Assembly: GCA_016183815.1 (NCBI GenBank)
Contig: JACPDW010000018.1
Location: forward strand, 1 to 64,000
From: Flavobacteriia bacterium
GTDB taxonomy: Bacteria; Bacteroidota; Bacteroidia; Flavobacteriales_D; Crocinitomicaceae
Direction: 5' to 3'
DNA length: 64,000 nt
Under the pieces are notes generated by a model. The model made no database searches, was not told where the DNA came from, and worked only from the letters and a program-made list of their open reading frames with translations. Position numbers and translations under genes: made by a program. Below are positions 139-64,000 of this stretch, piece after piece (position 1 is the first letter of the stretch; each line of letters starts with the position of its first letter).

Positions 139-179
139 TTTGTCTTTATAAGAAATTATTCTATTTCTTTAAAAATTTA

Positions 180-875: not shown

Positions 876-2408
876 ATGCAACACACAATTTGGATTATAG
901 ATTTTGGCTCCCAATATACTCAATTAATTGCAAGGAGAGTAAGAGAGTTTAACGTGTATTGTGAAATTCATCCTTGGAACAAAATTCCAACTATATCTAA
1001 TGAAATAAAAGGTATTATTTTGTCAGGAAGTCCTTTTTCTACTTTAGATGAAAAATCTCCACAAATAAATTTACACACTTTAGTGGGGAGAATACCAATT
1101 TTAGGAGTTTGTTACGGTGCTCAATACATTTCACTTACATTTGGTGGAAAAGTTTTACCCTCAAAAATAAGAGAATACGGTAGGGCAAACTTGAAAAAGA
1201 TAAGCAATGAAAGTTTGTTATTGAAAAATATACCTATTGACTCACAAGTATGGATGTCACATGGTGATACAATTGAAGAAATTCCTGAAAATTTCCTATG
1301 TACTGCTTCTACCAACGAAGTTATAAATGCAGCTTATGAATCAATTGAACAAAACATTTTTGCAGTTCAATTTCATCCAGAAGTGTATCATTCAACAGAT
1401 GGAAGTACTTTACTCCAAAACTTTGTGTTAAACATTTGTTCCTGTGACGCAACATGGACTCCCAATTCATTTGTCGAAGATTGTGTTGAAAAAATGAAAA
1501 ATTTAGTTGGTGAAGAACACGTTATCATGGGTTTAAGTGGAGGGGTCGATTCTAGTGTCGCAGCAGTTTTATTACATCATGCTATTGGTTCTAGATTGCA
1601 TTGTATATTTGTTGATAACGGTCTATTAAGAAAAGAGGAATACAAAAACGTGTTGGAATCTTACAAGCATATTGGATTAAATATCAAAGGAGTAGATGCC
1701 TCGGAAAGATTCTATACAGCTTTAAAAGGAATAACAGATCCTGAATTAAAAAGAAAAGCTATTGGAAAAACTTTTATTGAAGTTTTTGAACATGAATCTC
1801 ATTCGATTCCTGAAGCAAAATGGCTTGGTCAAGGCACCATTTATCCTGATGTGATTGAGTCGGTTTCAGTAAATGGTGGACCTTCGCAAACCATCAAATC
1901 TCATCATAATGTAGGAGCATTGCCTGATTTTATGAAATTAAAAATTATTGAACCTTTGAGATTATTATTCAAAGATGAAGTAAGAAGAGTAGGGAAAAGT
2001 TTAAAAATTGATGAACAAATTTTAGACCGACATCCCTTTCCAGGTCCTGGTTTAGGGATTAGAATTTTAGGTGAAGTTACTAAAGAAAAAGTAAAACTTT
2101 TGCAAGAAGTTGATTCAATCTTTATCTCTGGATTAAAAGAATCTGGTTTGTATAATGAAGTTTGGCAAGCAGGTTCAATTTTTTTACCAATCCAATCTGT
2201 TGGTGTAATGGGAGATGAAAGGACGTATGAAAATGCGATTGCTTTAAGAGCTGTAAGTTCTACCGATGGTATGACAGCCGATTGGTGTAGATTACCTTAT
2301 GATTTTTTAGCTGAAATTTCTAACAAAATAATTAATCAAGTGAAAGGTGTTAATCGTGTAACGTATGACATCAGTTCTAAACCTCCTGCCACTATTGAAT
2401 GGGAATAA
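876..2408 (+). CDS. guaA: GMP synthase (glutamine-hydrolysing)
   Basis: Converts XMP to GMP using ATP and glutamine-derived ammonia, the last step of guanine nucleotide synthesis, in the cytoplasm. The 510-residue length is normal. The N-terminal class I glutamine amidotransferase domain shows the nucleophile cysteine in GVCYGAQ (about residue 79) and the His-Glu pair in FHPEVYHS (about 167-169). The ATP pyrophosphatase domain carries the P-loop-like [10 protein letters not shown] (about 219-228), and the C-terminal dimerisation domain ends in the typical KPPATIEWE. It starts four bases after the upstream membrane-protein gene and likely shares its transcript. Confidence 0.97.
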
Positions 2409-2489
2409 ATTTGTATAGTTTTTGATAATAAATGTTTTTTATGTCACTTTTATAATTTAGTTTTAAAAAAAAAATCAACAAAATCAAAT

Positions 2490-4217
2490 ATGAATTATAA
2501 ATTTTTAATATGTTTTTTCTTTTTTTTCTATTCAGTTTCTTATACTCAAACCGATAGTTTACAGACTGAAGAGGTGAATGGAAAAAAATATTTTGTACAT
2601 TTTGTTCAACAAGGAAATACCCTCTATGGTATCAGTAAAAAATTTAATCGAAAAGCTGAAGATATTCTATTAATTAATCCTGACATTGAAAACGGACTTC
2701 AAATAGGTCAAAAAATTTTAGTCCCCTTTGATGAAAATAAAATTGAAGAAAACAAGTTAACTTATTCATTTTCATCAACTCATACTGTTCAGAAATCTGA
2801 AACTTTATATAGTATTTCAAAAAGATACGAAATTACTATGGAAGATCTAATCAAACTCAATCCTGGCGTTGAAAACGGATTGTCTATCGGTCAGATTTTA
2901 ACTTTACCATCAAACGCCAAAAGTATTGAAAATCCAAATCTGGAAACTTCAACAGAAGTTTTTTATAAAGACAGTATTATTTTTCACACCGTTCTCCCTT
3001 CCGAAACAATGTACAGTATATCAAAACGATTTATGGTGGACATTAACGAGTTGAAAAAAATCAACGGTATTAACAATGATAAAATTAAGAAAGGTGATGT
3101 GTTAAAAATTCCATTAAAAAAAGAAAGCATTAAAAAAATTGAATACCGTAAAATTGAAGAATATAAGGAGCCGACCGACACAACTGCCATTATGATTAAA
3201 AAGAGTAAATACAATATTGTGTATCTTTTACCATTCCATCTTGAATCAAATGCAGATATTTTAACAGAAATTGCCACTGAATTTTGGATGGGTTCTAAAA
3301 TAGCACTTGATTCTTTAGAAAAAATGGGGTTAATTGCTAATATTAATGTGATTGATGTACCATCTGATATTGAAAAATTTAAAGAAGTGTTAAAAAGCAA
3401 AGAACTTATCGATGCTAATTTAATTATTGGTCCGTTTACTGGAAAAAGTTTGGAATTAACCGCTCAATTTGCAAAAGAGAATAAAATTCACATGATCTCC
3501 CCATTGTCTTCAACATCCTCATTATTAAATGAAAACATTTATTGTTACAATGCTATAAATAGTGATGTTCAATTAATGGAAGGACTTGCCACTTTTCTTT
3601 CAAAAAACAGCTCAATCAATCAAATTATTATTGTAAAACCTGAGAATAAAGAATTGGATTTATTACATGCCTTTCGCTTAAAATATCAAGAAAAAAATAC
3701 TAAAACTCGTGTGATTGAATGTACTTTAAATGATTTACCAACATTTATACAAAAAAGTGGAATGAATCATGTGGTAATACCTTCTTCCGACAAAGTATTT
3801 GCACAAAAATTTATCAATCAATTAGTAAAATCAAACATAAAAGATAAAGCAATCACTATTTATGCCACAAAAGAATGGATAAACAATGACGATATTAGAG
3901 GTTTTTATAAAAACAAATATTTAATTCATATTGCCTCGCCATATGATTTTAATTATACCTACGAAGAAACAAAAGTATTATTAAAAAAATTCCGTTCATA
4001 TTACAATACTGATTTAAGCAAATATGGAACCCAAGGATTTGACGTGAGTTATTATTTTTTAGCTTATTTCTTTTTAAACACACCTAATATTAAAGGCGTG
4101 ATGAATAATTTCAACATGAAACCCATTAGAAAAGGTTCTGGTTTTGAAAATCAATTCACTTATATCTTAAAACAAGACAACTACGAGTTATTTCAAATCG
4201 ATAAGATAACAAATTAA
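2490..4217 (+). CDS. Secreted protein with three LysM domains fused to a periplasmic-binding-type domain
   Basis: 575 residues. An N-terminal signal peptide (hydrophobic to about residue 19) is followed by three LysM repeats, each beginning H-V/F-V and containing the Y-x-I-S-K-x-F/Y core, at about residues 36-80, 97-140 and 165-210. LysM binds N-acetylglucosamine of peptidoglycan. The rest, from YNIVYLLPF at about 245 to the end, looks like a type 1 periplasmic binding fold of the branched-chain amino acid receptor kind (GPFTGKSLELTAQFAKENKIHMISP region). No ABC permease is nearby, so a cell-wall-anchored sensor or scaffold is more likely than a transport receptor; ligand unknown. Similar fusions occur in other Flavobacteriia. 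Confidence 0.8.
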   Translation: MNYKFLICFFFFFYSVSYTQTDSLQTEEVNGKKYFVHFVQQGNTLYGISKKFNRKAEDILLINPDIENGLQIGQKILVPFDENKIEENKLTYSFSSTHTVQKSETLYSISKRYEITMEDLIKLNPGVENGLSIGQILTLPSNAKSIENPNLETSTEVFYKDSIIFHTVLPSETMYSISKRFMVDINELKKINGINNDKIKKGDVLKIPLKKESIKKIEYRKIEEYKEPTDTTAIMIKKSKYNIVYLLPFHLESNADILTEIATEFWMGSKIALDSLEKMGLIANINVIDVPSDIEKFKEVLKSKELIDANLIIGPFTGKSLELTAQFAKENKIHMISPLSSTSSLLNENIYCYNAINSDVQLMEGLATFLSKNSSINQIIIVKPENKELDLLHAFRLKYQEKNTKTRVIECTLNDLPTFIQKSGMNHVVIPSSDKVFAQKFINQLVKSNIKDKAITIYATKEWINNDDIRGFYKNKYLIHIASPYDFNYTYEETKVLLKKFRSYYNTDLSKYGTQGFDVSYYFLAYFFLNTPNIKGVMNNFNMKPIRKGSGFENQFTYILKQDNYELFQIDKITN

Positions 4218-4339
4218 TAAAGTTTTAAAAAAATAATAAATAAAAAAAGCAACCTAACAATTTGTTTTACGTTTATAGAACAGATAAAAAAAAGTATTTT
4301 CATATTAAAATTATTTATACTTTTATATCTTGAAATTAA

Positions 4340-5962
4340 ATGTGTATGCGAATTAAAAATTACTTATTATTTATTTATTTATCAGTTAGTTATAGTTTTA
4401 TATCCCAAATTTATCACGAAAATTTTGATCAAATTATCGATTGGGCCGTTGTAGATAGTGATGGTGATGGTGTTAATTGGTCTCAAATTGGACCAGCTGA
4501 ACTCGTAGGTTCACCATTAGAATCATTTGGAAATGCAATGTTTTCTCCTTCAGTAAATACATTAAACGGCACCCAACTAACTCCTGATAATTTCATGTTT
4601 AACACCAGCCCTATTGTTAAAGGAAATAACCCTGGATTAACCTATTTGATGTTTGATGCTGGAATTTTGTCTTTAACAGGTGGTGAGCAAGAAAACTATT
4701 CTATTTATTATTCTTCTGATGTACCAACAAATTTGCCTAATGAAATGATTAGTAACTTAGGTACTGTTTATCCACTTCTAGCAACGGGTACTGTATCAAC
4801 GCCAAATATGATTTCTACCATTTATTATAATGTAGACGCCATTCCTTATGATGAATTTTACTTAATTTTTAGACATAATAATGCTACAACCTTATCCACT
4901 CTTTTTATTGATAATGTAATGCTAGTGAATTCTCATTTTACTTCAAGCAACAACGTGGGTTGTGCAGCTTCAAACCTATCTTTTAATAATACAGCAGTAG
5001 GTAAATCACCTGAATTAAACATGTTTTTTACCTTTCAAGACGGTAATCCTTCAACCTCAGATCAAAACACAGTAGTTGTGAATTTTGGCAACGGAACTGG
5101 AATGAAAACAATTACTCAATATGTTAAGAATGTTCCCCTTTATTCTTATCAAGTTGAAATTGTTGATACTCCTACACCAAACTTTGATACCGATGTTTCA
5201 ACAGGATGTAGTCCATTAAGAGTTACTTTTTATGTAAATGACGGTAATGGTTATGAATTTACTTTTTCAGACAGCACTAAAATGACTATTCAAACGGGAG
5301 ATTCATTGACAAAAACTTTTTCAGATGCTGGTATTTATAACGTAATGTTAACCCAAACTATTGATGCTCAATGTGTCGGCTCAACAATTGTAAACAATTT
5401 AATTCATGTTTTACCAACACCTGACGCTAAATTTACTCCAACTGAAAGCAAATTAGATATGTTATACCCAACGGTTAGTTTTTTTAACGAATCGATTGGA
5501 GCAGTATCTTACGAATGGGATTTTGGAGATACAGCGGTAAATGAATATACTTTAAGTCCTACTCATGTTTATCCTGAAGGTGTTGAAGCCAATTATGATG
5601 TTAAATTAATTGCAACTTCCGCAGATGGATGCGTTGATTCAATAACTTCAAGAATTATTGTTGAAGAAAAAATTATGTATTTTATACCTAATACTTTTAC
5701 ACCTAATGGGGATGAATTTAATAATACTTTTAAACCAATGATGATAACTGGAGTAGATTCTAGAAATTACAATTTAAAAATATTTAATCGTTGGGGCACT
5801 TTAATATTTGAATCTAACGACCCAAACTATGGGTGGGACGGAGATTATGGTGCTGGAACAGGAATTACAGATGCTCAAGTATATACATATAAATTACAGT
5901 TTTTGTCCTCTAAAAATGACGAGGTCAGAACAGTAGTTGGAAGTGTTACTTTGTTAAAGTAA
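4340..5962 (+). CDS. Secreted surface protein with PKD-type repeats and type IX sorting domain (type B)
   Basis: 540 residues. A signal peptide ends near SFISQ (about residue 22). The next region starts with ENFD and a Ca-binding-like DSDGDGVNW, reminiscent of choice-of-anchor/cleaved-adhesin beta-sandwich domains. Two PKD-like domains follow; the second has YEWDFGD. The last about 95 residues match the gliding-motility-associated C-terminal domain (PNTFTPNGDEFN, NLKIFNRWG, ESNDPNYGWDG, final VTLLK), the type B signal for the type IX secretion system. ATG at 4340 or the second ATG at 4346 both work. It lies 19 bases before a paralogue with the same C-terminus. Role is probably adhesive; no catalytic motif seen. 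Confidence 0.85.
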   Translation: MCMRIKNYLLFIYLSVSYSFISQIYHENFDQIIDWAVVDSDGDGVNWSQIGPAELVGSPLESFGNAMFSPSVNTLNGTQLTPDNFMFNTSPIVKGNNPGLTYLMFDAGILSLTGGEQENYSIYYSSDVPTNLPNEMISNLGTVYPLLATGTVSTPNMISTIYYNVDAIPYDEFYLIFRHNNATTLSTLFIDNVMLVNSHFTSSNNVGCAASNLSFNNTAVGKSPELNMFFTFQDGNPSTSDQNTVVVNFGNGTGMKTITQYVKNVPLYSYQVEIVDTPTPNFDTDVSTGCSPLRVTFYVNDGNGYEFTFSDSTKMTIQTGDSLTKTFSDAGIYNVMLTQTIDAQCVGSTIVNNLIHVLPTPDAKFTPTESKLDMLYPTVSFFNESIGAVSYEWDFGDTAVNEYTLSPTHVYPEGVEANYDVKLIATSADGCVDSITSRIIVEEKIMYFIPNTFTPNGDEFNNTFKPMMITGVDSRNYNLKIFNRWGTLIFESNDPNYGWDGDYGAGTGITDAQVYTYKLQFLSSKNDEVRTVVGSVTLLK

Positions 5963-5981
5963 AAAATTAATACTAGTTGTT

Positions 5982-8900
5982 ATGAAAAAAATTGTCTATT
6001 CTTTGATTTATCTCTTTATTTTGAGTTATTCTTTTACACAAACAGAGATAGTTTTTAATACAAGTGAAACATATTTTACATGCAGTGCTTTTTTAATTGC
6101 CTCAGGGGGACAAGGAAATTCTCAATATAGCAACAATGAAGATAATACAATTACAATTTGTCCTGATAATCCTGATGATGTAATTTCAATCACTTTTAAT
6201 ACTTTCGCTTTAGATGAGACTGATGATAATCCTGCCGTTCCTAACACAAATCCTAACAATGTGAATTTAGATGAAATGTTAGTTTATGATGGTGCTAATA
6301 CTTCTGCCAACTTTTTAGGAAACTACACAGGTGACGGATTACAATCAACAGTAATTAAAGCAACTGCTCAAAACCCAACTGGTTGTATTACTCTTAGATT
6401 TATTTCTAATTCAATTGGTATTGGTATGTTTACTGCAAGTGTTTCTTGTACTACTCCTTGTGATGACCCAGTTGCTGGTGGGGTATTATTAAACGGAATA
6501 ACTCAAGATAGTATTCATGTCTGCGTAGGTGAGTTTGTTCAGTTTCAAGAAGTTGGATCTTTTGCACAAAATGGTTTTAATATAGCAAGTTATCAATGGG
6601 ATTTTGCTGATGGATTTACATCTAATAGTCAATCTACAACTCATGCCTATAATGAAGCTGGGTATTATAGGGTACAATTGTATGTTACTGACGACAATGG
6701 ATGTACAAACAATAATTTGATTGATTTAGATGTAAAAGTAGCCACTTTTCCTGATTTTGAACTTTTCATGAGAGATTCTACTATATGTGTTGGTGAATCT
6801 CTTCGGCTAGTAGCTGAACCTTTATTGTATGAAAATACCTGGACAAGCGCTGTCGGAAGCATTGAAATAGAAAATGGATGTATGTATGATACGATGTTGG
6901 GGGTTTCTCAAGATTTAGAGTTAGTTCAAACCTTTTTTATTTCAGGTTCCACTATTACCAATATCAATCAAATTGAATCGATTTGTATGGATATGGAACA
7001 TTCATTTATTGGTGATTTAGTGATTACTTTATACTGCCCTAACGGACAATCCGTTGTTTTACATCAACAAGGAGGTGGTGGAACTTTTTTGGGAGAAGCG
7101 ATAGATGAAACTAATATTGATTGTAACGACCCCTCAACAATTGGAGTCCCCTATAATTATTGTTTTACTGTAGGTGCAGCTGAAACATGGGTTGAATACG
7201 TCGAAAATAATAATTGGCCTGGAATATTACCTGCAGGTGATTACGCTAGTGTTGAACCTTTAGATCAGCTCGTTGGTTGCCCTACAAATGGTGTTTGGAC
7301 ATTGTCTGTTGTGGACAATTGGGGAGTTGACGACGGTAAAGTATTTAGTTTTTCACTTAATTTAAGTGAGGATTTATATGGAGAGATTGTAGAATTCACC
7401 CCTCAACATAGTACAGCTACAGATTCTTCTTATTGGCATTTTCCTGCCTCTTATGCATCTGATTTATCAGCTGATGCAGATTCTATGACCGTAACTCCAC
7501 TTGTTCCAGGTGTATTTAATTATCATTATACTGTTTATAATGATTTTGGTTGTGCAAACGATACTAGTGTTACAGTGACAGTATTTCAAGTGGCACCACC
7601 TTTTGTTATGAGTGATGTCACAGAATGTGCTGAAACACCATTTAATGTGAGTGGAGATTTTCAACCTTGTACCTATACCATTCGATTGGAAGATAGTTAC
7701 GGCGATAGTTGGAACGGTAACACCGTTGATATAACGAATAACGGTAATACTTCTAATTATACTGTAGATTTTGATGATAACGGAGGAGATTTCCTTGAAA
7801 TACCCATTGTTTTGAATCAAAATGATCAAATTACTTTTCAATTTAATGCAACTGGAGATTATGTTTCAGAATGTATAATTTATTTATTAGATTGTAATGG
7901 TGAAATTGTTTACCAAAACGGTGGAGATTGGGAGGGTCCAGTAACAACTCCTGAAACACATACCGTAAATATGCAAAGTACACCACCAGGTTATGCTTTT
8001 GTTTGGACACCCTCAGAAATTTTTGATGACCCAAACTCATCTTCACCAATAGCAACAATTACTTCTCCTACTTTGATTACAATGGCTTATTATCCTATAG
8101 AACATCCGCTATGTGTAGTTTACAGTACTATGATGGCTAATATAAACCCTGATGCTTACGCTGGTTATGATTCTATTATAGATACTTGTTATAATTTACC
8201 CACTTTTGATTTAACACCTTTATTAGGTCAAGGAATTTCAATGAATGGTGTTTGGACAGATCCAAATGGAAACACCGTTACAATGCCAATTGACGTTACA
8301 CAAAATATTCATGGAGATTATATTTATGCTGTTGGTGATGGTACCTGTTTTGATCAAGCAACAGTCAATAATCAAATCAGATATGAAGATTCTATTGTAA
8401 TAAATTATCTAACAGATCCTCATATTTGTATTGGAGACACCTCAATTTTTGTAAATCAAGCTAATTTGCAAAATATACAAAATATTTTTGTGACAATCGG
8501 AGATACTACTCCAGTATTTGATATAGGTCAAAATTTTGATACGATTGTTCATTTATATCCTTTTGTTGGCACTTATAACACCTCATTTCATACAATATCA
8601 ACTAATGGTTGTCAATATTTTCAAGATTTCCTTAATGTAGTAAATGTTCATTCCTATCCAGTGGCTGATTTTACATATTATCCTGAACAAATTACTATGC
8701 TTAATCCTGAACTTACTGTAACAAATAATTCAGTTGGAGCTTTAGATCATATCAATTGGTATTTTTCTAATGCATTAACTGATACTTCTTCAATGGAAAC
8801 ACAAATGGTAACTTACCCATTTGAATCTGGTTTATTTCCAATTACTTTGATTGTTACAGATACAGTTGGATGTATTGATTCAATTACAAAATTGATTAAT

Positions 8901-52534: not shown

Positions 52535-53128
52535 TTATTTTTTTAACCCTGCGTCTTTTTCAATCTTTGCCTGATATTCATTTAAGAAGTTTACAAATTC
52601 TTTTGTAACATTCATCTTTGGGTCGATATAGTTGATTTGACCACCTGAGCCATGAACTAATAACACGTCAATTTGATTTTTTTTGCAAAATTCTTTACCT
52701 GCATTTTCAATTTTTTTTGTTATAACTTCTAATTGTTCCATGGTTTCTTTTTCAATTTTTGTACCTTCATTTTGTTGATATTGATACAAAGCTTGTTCTT
52801 TTCTTTGAGCTTCTTGTTGAATGTTTTGTAATTCAAAACCAGACAGTTGACCTGATTTAGCTCTTTCATCGTTTGTTAATAGGAACTCTTGTAAAGATTT
52901 TTGTCTTTTTTCCAATTCAGCTTGGAACTGCAATTGTTTTTTTGTAACACTAGAATCGGATTTTTTATAAAATTCAAATCCAGTTTTTAAACTGTCTTGA
53001 TAATAATAGGCCAACTTTAAACCATTTTTAATAACAGGCACATGTGGAGTGTCAGTTTTTTTCTTTTCAACTTGTTGATTACAAGCAAATAACAAAGTTG
53101 TTAAAACTAAAAGGGTTGTTTTTTTCAT
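52535..53128 (-). CDS. OmpH/Skp-like lipoprotein
   Basis: 197 residues. Lipobox LLFAC (Cys 16). The mature protein has GLKLAYYYQDSLKTGFEF in place of the usual Skp start, a coiled coil rich in Gln/Lys/Glu (about 60-125), and a head with IDVLLVHGSGGQINYIDPKMNVTKEFVNFLN. Unlike the two copies at 49403 and 49989 it should be membrane-anchored. Starts three bases after the small gene upstream. Confidence 0.85.
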   Translation of the reverse strand: MKKTTLLVLTTLLFACNQQVEKKKTDTPHVPVIKNGLKLAYYYQDSLKTGFEFYKKSDSSVTKKQLQFQAELEKRQKSLQEFLLTNDERAKSGQLSGFELQNIQQEAQRKEQALYQYQQNEGTKIEKETMEQLEVITKKIENAGKEFCKKNQIDVLLVHGSGGQINYIDPKMNVTKEFVNFLNEYQAKIEKDAGLKK

Positions 53129-61187: not shown

Positions 61188-63143
61188 ATGCGACGAATTA
61201 TATTTTTCCTCTTTATTTCATTGTCTTTTTCCTGTTTTTCTCAAAAGGAAAAATTTTCTTGTTCAAATGTAAAACAAAAACATTTTCATACGAAAAGCAA
61301 TACTCTTTCATTACATCAGATTAAATTGACAGAAAAATACGATGTAAATTATTATAATTTGAATTTAAGTATGAGTAACTTATCTACTTATATTAATGGA
61401 TTTGTAACAATTCATGCGAAATCATTGACAAGTTTGGATACTGTTCTTTTTGAGTTGCATCAACAACTTAATGTAAGCACCATTGAATTAAACAATGAGA
61501 ATGTTGCTTTTACAAGAAATTCATCGGCTATAATAATTAATACCAACATTCAAGCTAATACTTCATTTAGTATTAAAATTTTTTATGAAGGTACCCCACC
61601 AGATGCTGTGTCTAATCCTTTAGGTGGTTCTGGAATGACAAACGATTTTTCTCCCTCTTGGGGAAATCAAGTTACATGGACTTTAAGTGAACCATTTTCT
61701 GCATTTGAATGGTTTCCAGTAAAACAATCATTGATAGACAAAGCGGATAGTGTAGAGGTAAATATTACTGTTCCTTCAAATTGTAAAGCTGGTTCAAATG
61801 GAATACTTATGAGTGTAACAAATGATGGAAATGGAAACAGCACATATCATTGGAAACACAATCATCCTATTGATTATTATTTAATTTCTGTTGCAGTAGC
61901 TGAATATGTGGATTATTCTATTTATGCAAACCCAGTAGGAAGTGATCCTGTTTTAATTCAAAACTATGTTTATAACAATCCTCAAACATTACCAAATTTC
62001 CAACAAGATATTGATGAAACAGCCACTTTTATTGAATTGTATTCAGAACTTTTTGGTTTATATCCATTTGCTGATGAAAAGTACGGACATTGTATGGCCC
62101 CTTTAGGAGGTGGAATGGAACACCAGACTATGACTACCCAAGGTTATTTTGAAAAATCATTGACTTCCCATGAATTGGCACATCAATGGTGGGGTGATCA
62201 AGTAACCTGTCAATCGTGGGCTGATATTTGGGTAAATGAAGGTTTTGCTTCCTATTCAGAGTATTTAATGTTTGAACATTTGTATCCTGATGAAAAAGAG
62301 CAAGATATGTTAAACAGACACGACTACATTATGTCTGAACCTAATGGAAGTATTTACGTTCTGGACAGTTTAAATGGAGGTAGAATTTTCAGTGGACGAC
62401 TCACTTACGACAAAGGAGCAGCTTTTATTCATACTTTAAGATACATTATTAATAACGATGAATTGTTTTTTGAAGGGTTACGAAATTATCAACAAAGCTT
62501 TAAAAACAAAACGGCATTAGGAATTGATGTACAAGCATCATTGGAAAGTGCGTCAGGAGTTGACTTGAGTGCTGCTTTTGAAGAGTGGTATTTTGGTGAG
62601 GGATTTCCAACGTATAATGTGACTTGGAACTATGAAAACTACCGTTTACATTTGAAAGTGGAACAAAACGTTTCGGCTGGAAATATTACACCTTTGTTTA
62701 CGACTCCTTTAGAGATAAAATGCAGAAAATCAAATTTTTCTGATACAATTATACGTATGGAATTACCTTCACAAACAACAATTTTTTCTCTTCCAACAGG
62801 ATTTCCAATTACTACTGTACTCAATGTAGATCCGAACAATTGGATAGTAAATGGAACTGGAACCATACAAAAAGACGAGACATTTTTTGCAGAAACTTCA
62901 ATTTTTGAGAATAACGAAGAAGGAATTATTATCTATCCAAATCCGACATCCGATTTAATATCAATTAAAGGATTGGAAAATAAAAAATGTAAATTTTCCT
63001 TAATTCAACCTGATGGAAAAACGATGAATATAGGAGCTTCAAATAGCATTGATTTGACATCTTATTCAGCAGGAATATATGTTCTTTTTATCGAAGAATT
63101 AGAGAGTAAAAAACAATACAGAAAAATTATTAAAAAGAAATAG
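61188..63143 (+). CDS. Secreted M1-family metallopeptidase with type IX sorting domain (type A)
   Basis: 651 residues. Signal peptide to about residue 19 (FFLFISLSFSCFS). The M1 catalytic core has the substrate motif GGGMEHQTM in place of GAMEN and the zinc motif HELAHQWWGD with the third ligand Glu in WVNEGFASYSEY. The last about 80 residues (IIIYPNPTSDLISIKG ... SAGIYVLFIEELESKKQYRKIIKK) form the Por-type type A type IX sorting domain, so it is exported across the outer membrane and anchored or released. Likely a nutritional aminopeptidase. The coding region is followed by a transposase-less mobile element. Confidence 0.93.
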   Translation: MRRIIFFLFISLSFSCFSQKEKFSCSNVKQKHFHTKSNTLSLHQIKLTEKYDVNYYNLNLSMSNLSTYINGFVTIHAKSLTSLDTVLFELHQQLNVSTIELNNENVAFTRNSSAIIINTNIQANTSFSIKIFYEGTPPDAVSNPLGGSGMTNDFSPSWGNQVTWTLSEPFSAFEWFPVKQSLIDKADSVEVNITVPSNCKAGSNGILMSVTNDGNGNSTYHWKHNHPIDYYLISVAVAEYVDYSIYANPVGSDPVLIQNYVYNNPQTLPNFQQDIDETATFIELYSELFGLYPFADEKYGHCMAPLGGGMEHQTMTTQGYFEKSLTSHELAHQWWGDQVTCQSWADIWVNEGFASYSEYLMFEHLYPDEKEQDMLNRHDYIMSEPNGSIYVLDSLNGGRIFSGRLTYDKGAAFIHTLRYIINNDELFFEGLRNYQQSFKNKTALGIDVQASLESASGVDLSAAFEEWYFGEGFPTYNVTWNYENYRLHLKVEQNVSAGNITPLFTTPLEIKCRKSNFSDTIIRMELPSQTTIFSLPTGFPITTVLNVDPNNWIVNGTGTIQKDETFFAETSIFENNEEGIIIYPNPTSDLISIKGLENKKCKFSLIQPDGKTMNIGASNSIDLTSYSAGIYVLFIEELESKKQYRKIIKKK

Positions 63144-63163
63144 ACAAGCTGTTTTTGTTTTTA

Positions 63164-63173
63164 CTGTATATGT
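63164..63173 (+). repeat. Target site duplication, left copy (ctgtatatgt)
   Basis: Ten bases directly before the left tip of the small mobile element, repeated without mismatch at 63701-63710. The length matches the 8-10 base duplications known for ISAs1-type insertions. Confidence 0.85.
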
Positions 63174-63700
63174 CAGGGCAAACGCATACTTTTTTAAAAT
63201 TACCAAAACAAATTACCAAAAATCGATTTTCGGATAATAAAGTATCTACTAATTCTGTGTCAATTTAAAAGTTTAAACCCTTTGCTTTAGCTCAAAAAAA
63301 CTGCATACTAAGTGTTTATTCTCTTACTTTTTTATTCGCTTATTTTTTGTTTTTAAAGGTGCTCATGAGAAAAGTTCATTGCCAAAAAAGTAAGCAAAAA
63401 GTCTAGTCCTATTTGTTCCTCAAAACTTTCATTCATTGCAAATCGATAATTTTCTACCGATAGCTATCGGCAGAGCTTGCAGCTAATAGCATATACAATT
63501 ATTAATAAGTCCAAAATTTTAAAATATGCTGATACAATATGAAAATAGACAATTTTTAATTGGTCTATCTTGAATATGTAATCGGTATCATTTTCAGTTT
63601 TTCATAACAAAAAGGGACAAAATTACGATCCAAAACTAATTTTAGTGATAAAATTAACTTAATTTCATCTCCAAAAATTTAAAAGTGTGAGTTTGCCCTG
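63174..63700. mobile_element. 527-bp non-autonomous ISAs1-type element (MITE-like)
   Basis: Left tip cagggcaaacgcatactttt and right tip aaaagtgtgagtttgccctg are inverted repeats agreeing at 18 of 20 positions. Perfect 10-base direct repeats flank it. The inside has no transposase frame; it holds AT-rich sequence and a palindrome CCGATAGCTATCGG at 63457-63470. The right tip is identical to that of the transposase-bearing element at the window start, which could mobilise it. Confidence 0.85.
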
Positions 63701-63710
63701 CTGTATATGT
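63701..63710 (+). repeat. Target site duplication, right copy (ctgtatatgt)
   Basis: Identical to the ten bases at 63164-63173 on the other side of the element. Confidence 0.85.
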
Positions 63711-64000
63711 TTTTCTATTACTTTGAGGATTTTTTTCTATTTTTATAAACCTTTTTGAAAATGAAATTTAAAGAATTTATTTAGAAAAGTAAAAATCAAA
63801 TACATTTTAATTTTCACAAATATCAATTTTTTATTGAAATATGTTGACTAATTACAAAACACAAACCGTAAATAATATATTTATATTGCGGATTTAAACG
63901 TAAAATATATAAATAAAATAGTTATAAAATGTATAAATATTTATTTTAAATTACAGTAAAACATAAAAAACATATTATAATTTTGTATTTTTGTAAAAAA
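63711..64000. other. AT-rich intergenic region at the window end
   Basis: No gene or RNA recognised. A TAnnTTTG element, TATTTTTG, lies at 63986-63993 and may be the promoter of a gene beyond the window. Confidence 0.4.

Follow-up and report, generated by a model that had tools for sequence, protein, structure and literature searches.

A 527-bp MITE with ISAs1-type ends and a nested-repeat interior in a Flavobacteriia bacterium

The element and its genomic setting

The window analysed here, a stretch of 64,000 nucleotides from a Flavobacteriia bacterium with an AT content of 70%, carries close to its right end a short element of 527 bp (63174-63700). The gene upstream, at 61188-63143, matches Peptidase_M1 and ends in a type-IX secretion sorting tail, in line with the earlier note, which had described it as a secreted peptidase. 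Only 30 bases, the left duplication included, separate its stop codon from the element. The downstream neighbour is a co-directional AAA_14/DUF4143 gene starting at C25:64054; the element therefore sits between co-directional genes, and no gene is visibly broken.

Direct reading and a script agreed on the boundaries of the element (Table 1). Its inverted tips span 20 bp, of which 18 are identical (CAGGGCAAACGCATACTTTT on the left and CAGGGCAAACTCACACTTTT on the right, the latter given as reverse complement), and perfect copies of CTGTATATGT flank it on both sides (10/10). Since no stop-to-stop frame inside it exceeds 45 codons, it contains no transposase gene. Terminal inverted repeats, a target-site duplication and a small size without a transposase are the marks of a MITE, and the element is a newly described member of this known kind. 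The earlier note's proposal of a MITE-like element with a target duplication was thus borne out, and the partner family can now be named as ISAs1. Its length falls inside the range of 50-1000 bp given for MITEs in the available text of PMC4596501 and exceeds the 30-300 bp given in that of PMC4133298.

Table 1 Features of the element and of the IS end at the contig edge (window coordinates)
Feature	Position	Strand	Remarks
IS right end at contig edge	3..138	+	Last 41 transposase codons at 3-125 (71% to P0001), right tip at 126-138
10-bp duplication TTTGTCTTTA of the contig-edge IS copy	139..148	.	Partner flanks an IS left end, C24:15634
Left target-site duplication CTGTATATGT	63164..63173	.	Direct reading and script
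Left terminal inverted repeat	63174..63195	+	21/22 to left end of own-genome ISAs1-type IS
Repeat B, left part	63375..63454	+	96% to G004:C78; 90% over 78 bases to G001:C101
Patch differing from second copy	63455..63485	+	9/31 identical; holds CCGATAGCTATCGG at 63457-63470
Dispersed repeat A, nested in B	63486..63588	+	Consensus ATACC...GGTAT; left edge here ATAGC
Repeat B, right part	63588..63641	+	93% to G004:C78; first base shared with the last of A as drawn
Right terminal inverted repeat	63679..63700	-	21/22 to right end of own-genome ISAs1-type IS
Right target-site duplication CTGTATATGT	63701..63710	.	Direct reading and script

We searched the genome of origin (G000; 44 contigs, 3.24 Mb) for further copies, scoring the best 40 of 157 candidates. 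The 40 listed matches comprised the element itself, one further full-length copy, one tip and 37 mid-element matches, which cover query positions 314-439 and represent a separate repeat, termed A below. The second full-length copy, of 625 bp, lies at G000:C16:239172-239796 (239797 in the search listing). It is 76% identical to the window element with gaps and 89% (469/526) ungapped; outside a single 31-base patch, the two are 91-94% identical in sections. A script looking for a target duplication at the second copy found none. Two full-length copies among the listed own-genome matches are few for a MITE. The earlier note had taken a lack of other copies as evidence against its proposal, and one such copy exists. 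It had also called the insertion fresh, which describes only part of the picture: the duplication is perfect and the window insertion is probably recent, but the two copies are identical at only 469 of 526 positions, so the MITE family itself is not new.

The window's sole perfect palindrome, CCGATAGCTATCGG, lies in the patch in which the two copies disagree, with 0 expected in shuffles. Across 176 loci, it was present solely in those overlapping 63457-63470.

The corresponding region was also inspected in four congeners. The peptidase gene aligned at 70-72% in G001, G002 and G004 and not at all in G003. Downstream of it, there was no blastn alignment, tblastx gave scattered fragments, and the next genes differ; no empty site for the window insertion was shown among G001-G004.

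Ends shared with a resident ISAs1-type IS

Searching the genome of origin for the tip pattern with at most one mismatch returned 19 occurrences (reversed-pattern control: 2 and 1). Thirteen were exact. Three of these fall in the MITE copies and nine close to contig edges; the last, at C40:95934, resembles a diverged IS right end. Of the six occurrences with one mismatch, one supplies the second copy's other tip, and the other five seem unrelated. The nine contig-edge sites divide into left ends (five) and right ends (four) of an ISAs1-type IS, near-identical within each group. The IS is seen in this genome solely as such broken ends, and one of the right ends opens the window itself (1-138); the assembly has no complete ISAs1 transposase gene, only end fragments. 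Two of the left ends are sufficiently long to yield 46 N-terminal residues, which match PF13808 and align at 59% to P0001, and all four right ends encode 41-42 C-terminal residues aligning to it at 71%. P0001 is the ISAs1 transposase of a relative, G242; it scores 376.5 bits against NF033564, “ISAs1 family transposase” (cut-off 70), and contains the PF13808 and PF01609 (DDE_Tnp_1) domains. The full-length IS encoding it in G242 measures 1259 bp and has the same tips, with no target duplication at its ends. A pattern search of named genomes for relatives of the IS gave 47 stretches, one of which encodes a relative, the G242 record. Named genomes gave 0 exact matches to the left end of the MITE, in a scan that possibly excluded the own or a very near genome.

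The match between MITE and IS respects the polarity of the ends. The MITE's left tip shares 21/22 positions with the left end of the IS and 19/22 with the right end; for the right tip, 21/22 are shared with the IS right end and 19/22 with the left. On either side, blastn at E 0.01 lost the similarity to the own-genome IS ends and to the IS of G242 at about base 22-24.

The length of the target duplication agrees as well. Pairing the flanks of each of the five left ends with those of the four right ends above and of C40 gave 25 comparisons. Three pairings, C11-C38, C24-C25 and C43-C19, agree over exactly 10 bp, and none of the remaining 22 agrees over 5 bp or more; two left and two right ends stay unpaired. 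Because three pairs of IS flanks share exactly 10 bp, the resident IS, like the MITE, generates duplications of 10 bp. Since the TTTGTCTTTA duplication matches on both contigs, C25 and C24 very likely adjoin each other with one IS copy between them. The element and the resident member of the ISAs1 family (NF033564) therefore have in common their tips, the left/right polarity and the 10-bp duplication, whereas the window element lacks a transposase and shares only about 22 bp per end.

Two nested repeats inside the tips

The interior holds two repeats. In two congeners, G001 and G004, repeat B occupies intergenic positions and has no tips around it; the tip pattern is absent from both genomes. 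In the genome of origin, five matches to B were found when the best 40 of 110 candidates were scored, all of them belonging to one or the other MITE copy. By eye, the apparent G001:C10 counterpart of the B site at G004:C78 keeps the outer parts and lacks most of the middle, so that B is possibly an insertion in its own right or an intergenic cassette of variable make-up.

Repeat A is nested in B. It spans 99-153 bp in 21 aligned rows, 13 of which start with ATACC and 17 of which end with GGTAT, and CCCCG...CGGG and a loop insert occur in it as optional inner pieces. The final alignment of A kept 18 of the 21 rows, dropping L038 and L044 as near-duplicates of L037 and L045, and L046 as ill-fitting. 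A covariance model of A matched at least 35 times in G000, at least 4 times in G004 and at least once in G001, with 0 matches in G002 and G003 among the best 150 candidates scored in each. The search scored the best 150 of 1,865-8,413 candidates per genome, and 18 of the 35 G000 matches had been used to build the model. At the junctions of A, the second MITE copy reads CCAATTT-TATACC...GGTAT-CATTTTCAG, and the relatives preserve the empty site: G004:C78 and G001:C101 read CCAATTTCATTTTCAG, and G004:C248 has a shortened form. This comparison revealed no visible duplication at the A insertion. As A is present in both MITE copies, it probably entered before they diverged.

For 25 of the 35 matches to A a locus was available, with 5 at contig edges. 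Once the edge copies were removed, 6 of 20 touched a stop-to-stop frame of at least 100 codons. Nine of the 14 copies with complete flanks and no ORF overlap lie between converging frames; the two MITE copies are among these 14.

We considered structured RNA as an identity for A and B and rejected it: Rfam gave 0 matches up to E 1 (L001 and L028, 5348 bases), and the consensus hairpin of A has no covariation support, with one of 17 pairs showing a double change (covariation term +0.33). A REP/RAYT relationship was considered for A, and the genome of origin has two Y1 transposase matches, one in a frame of more than 1000 codons on C18 and one in a 190-aa ORF on C11. None of the model matches to A lies on C11; on C18, one is located some 3.1 kb away from the Y1 match. 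This Y1 match (L091, G000:C18:35441-35764) seems to be in frame within its long host frame, which by eye otherwise resembles a DNA methyltransferase/restriction protein.

Related elements, origin and known systems

A survey of 240 genomes of the taxonomic family found the 19-base tip pattern in 12 of them, own genome included, at 49 places, and its reversed control at none. Ten of the places in other genomes had no locus and fall outside the element count. The loci of this survey, together with G037, a genome of another family in the same order found through its tip, yielded nine distinct tip pairs. Three of them, measuring 233 bp in G037, 203 bp in G181 and 334 bp in G019, are short gene-less elements that carry the same tips and are flanked by perfect 10-bp duplications. 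A 412-bp element of G019 has a 9/10 duplication by eye, where a script demanding exact agreement gave 2, and no duplication flanks the 441-bp element of G019, two tip pairs of G113 or the remaining two of the nine, the second MITE copy and the G242 IS. The G113 pairs (705 and 1016 bp) were rejected as elements, given their degenerate right tips and missing duplications.

The three G019 elements (L151, L159 and L164; 334-441 bp) are mutually related. Beyond the end regions, the interiors from G019, G037, G181 and the window do not align with one another, save for two short exceptions: the G037 element matches the right end of the window element at 84% over its first 43 bases, and a 30-base stretch matches at 80% between one G019 element and the second MITE copy. 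The first 61 bases of the G037 element also match the left end of the IS in the window's own genome at 74% (66 columns). Matches to P0001 occur in 8 of the 13 genomes of the tip set; none was found in G037, G019, G181, G139 or G047 (completeness 97, 79, 92, 87 and 86%, respectively). In G037, G019 and G181, the partner IS may be missing, too divergent or unassembled.

That such interiors are all strong hairpins was rejected as a rule by shuffle z-scores. On the two strands, these are -6.9/-7.5 for G037, -5.8/-3.6 for the 334-bp element of G019 and -2.1/-4.8 for G181; they are -2.0/-1.9 and -1.2/-1.3 for the 441- and 412-bp elements of G019, 0.2/-0.9 for the window element and 1.5/-0.6 for its second copy.

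Taken as a whole, we are highly confident that the 527-bp element is a MITE with ISAs1-family ends, probably moved in trans by the transposase of the resident IS. Its ends of about 20 bp are those of the ISAs1-type IS, and the ISAs1 transposase, with the PF13808 and DDE_Tnp_1 domains seen in the G242 relative, would bind them in trans and move the segment between. The target would be cut with a 10-base stagger, gap repair leaving the 10-bp duplication. The cargo would be a copy of B that had already received A and had come to be enclosed by IS tips before the two copies diverged; both the order of these events and the way the tips came to enclose B are part of this proposed course.

Other origins would have to account for the same observations. 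Had an IS lost its gene, degraded IS sequence would remain between the tips. Such an internal-deletion derivative would have tips fitting the left and right IS ends in the correct order, as they do here, and in the G037 element the similarity to the IS does extend past the tips. In the window element, however, similarity to the own IS, compared by its ends alone, and to the G242 IS stops at about base 22-24, and the interior matches repeats A and B instead, making a deletion origin improbable. Coincidence in AT-rich DNA deserves almost no credence. Across the 63,453 testable window positions at the spacing of the element, exact 10-bp direct repeats occur twice, the other being TTCAATTTTT at 52761, with 14/20 tip mismatches; 20-bp inverted tips with at most two mismatches occur once, and both features coincide only at 63174. 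The same tips, moreover, also mark IS ends and other elements, and their reversed pattern is absent from the family-wide survey.

We also weighed the possibility that the element is kept because A or B serves the peptidase gene or the following AAA/DUF4143 gene as a promoter or terminator. The tendency of A toward sites between converging genes would suit such a role, as would a sigma-70-like site inside the element (63263-63234, minus strand), which at 11/12 is the best in 62900-64000. Yet that region holds 8 such sites against a shuffle mean of 8.5, and a scan of it found no terminator-like site. The TTTG/TAnnTTTG pair, the Bacteroidota-type promoter motif, does not occur inside the element. 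Neither the interior nor A (z -1.1/-1.7 on the two strands) folds better than shuffles, the hairpin of A lacks covariation support, and the window copy is flanked by co-directional genes rather than converging ones. A regulatory cassette is accordingly unlikely, and the earlier suggestion that the element could carry signals affecting its neighbours found no backing in these scans.

Under the preferred reading, movement in trans by the resident IS, a likely partner has been identified for an otherwise orphan repeat, and the three nested layers, with A inside B and B inside ISAs1 tips, would put the movements in time order. As a natural example, the element would also indicate that about 22 bp are sufficient for an ISAs1 end, with the target cut at a 10-bp stagger. 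A broader idea, which we put forward tentatively, is that ISAs1 transposases in this bacterial order may repeatedly make “tips-only” cassettes, the IS serving as a shuttle for host repeats. It is suggested by four differing interiors (the window family, G019, G037 and G181), each with a 10-bp duplication; the last three come from genomes without a P0001 match. As part of the same idea, and just as speculatively, some 20 bp of IS end per side might be enough to mobilise unrelated intergenic repeat DNA.

Szuplewska and Bartosik reportedly described, in 2009, a mosaic element of Paracoccus marcusii with ISPmar4, a member of the ISAs1 family. Going by the title, it is said to combine a whole IS with a transposable module, unlike the tips-only window element. 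Within the open literature combining ISAs1 and MITE, a scope that leaves out ISfinder and the subscription literature, no ISAs1-type MITE appears in the accessible portions of PMC3542288, PMC11578231, PMC5756416, PMC3281130, PMC9208149, PMC4133298, PMC4596501 and PMC3733652; PMC5756416 mentions there three MITEs, family not stated. An ISAs1-type MITE may be known elsewhere.

The nearest parallel is BrickBuilt, according to the available text of PMC4596501 a MITE that trapped a repeat. Among the MITEs of Porphyromonas gingivalis, BrickBuilt resembles the window element in its IS-like tips, its trapped interior repeat and the absence of a transposase remnant. BrickBuilt has IS5-type ends around a 23-nt tandem repeat and 19 segments in ATCC 33277 (PMC4596501), whereas the window element has ISAs1 ends, nested dispersed repeats and two copies. 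The Tn3-derived TIMEs, as presented in the accessible part of PMC4133298, are likewise tips-only, non-autonomous elements with mosaic cargo, usually in single copy. They differ in their Tn3-type 38-bp ends and 5-6-bp duplications, and they were caught as functional elements with trap plasmids. MITEPye1 of Paracoccus yeei, which has IS1182-type ends, is comparable in that it occurs in 1-3 mostly intergenic copies per chromosome and that its partner was deduced from its ends (PMC11578231, available text).
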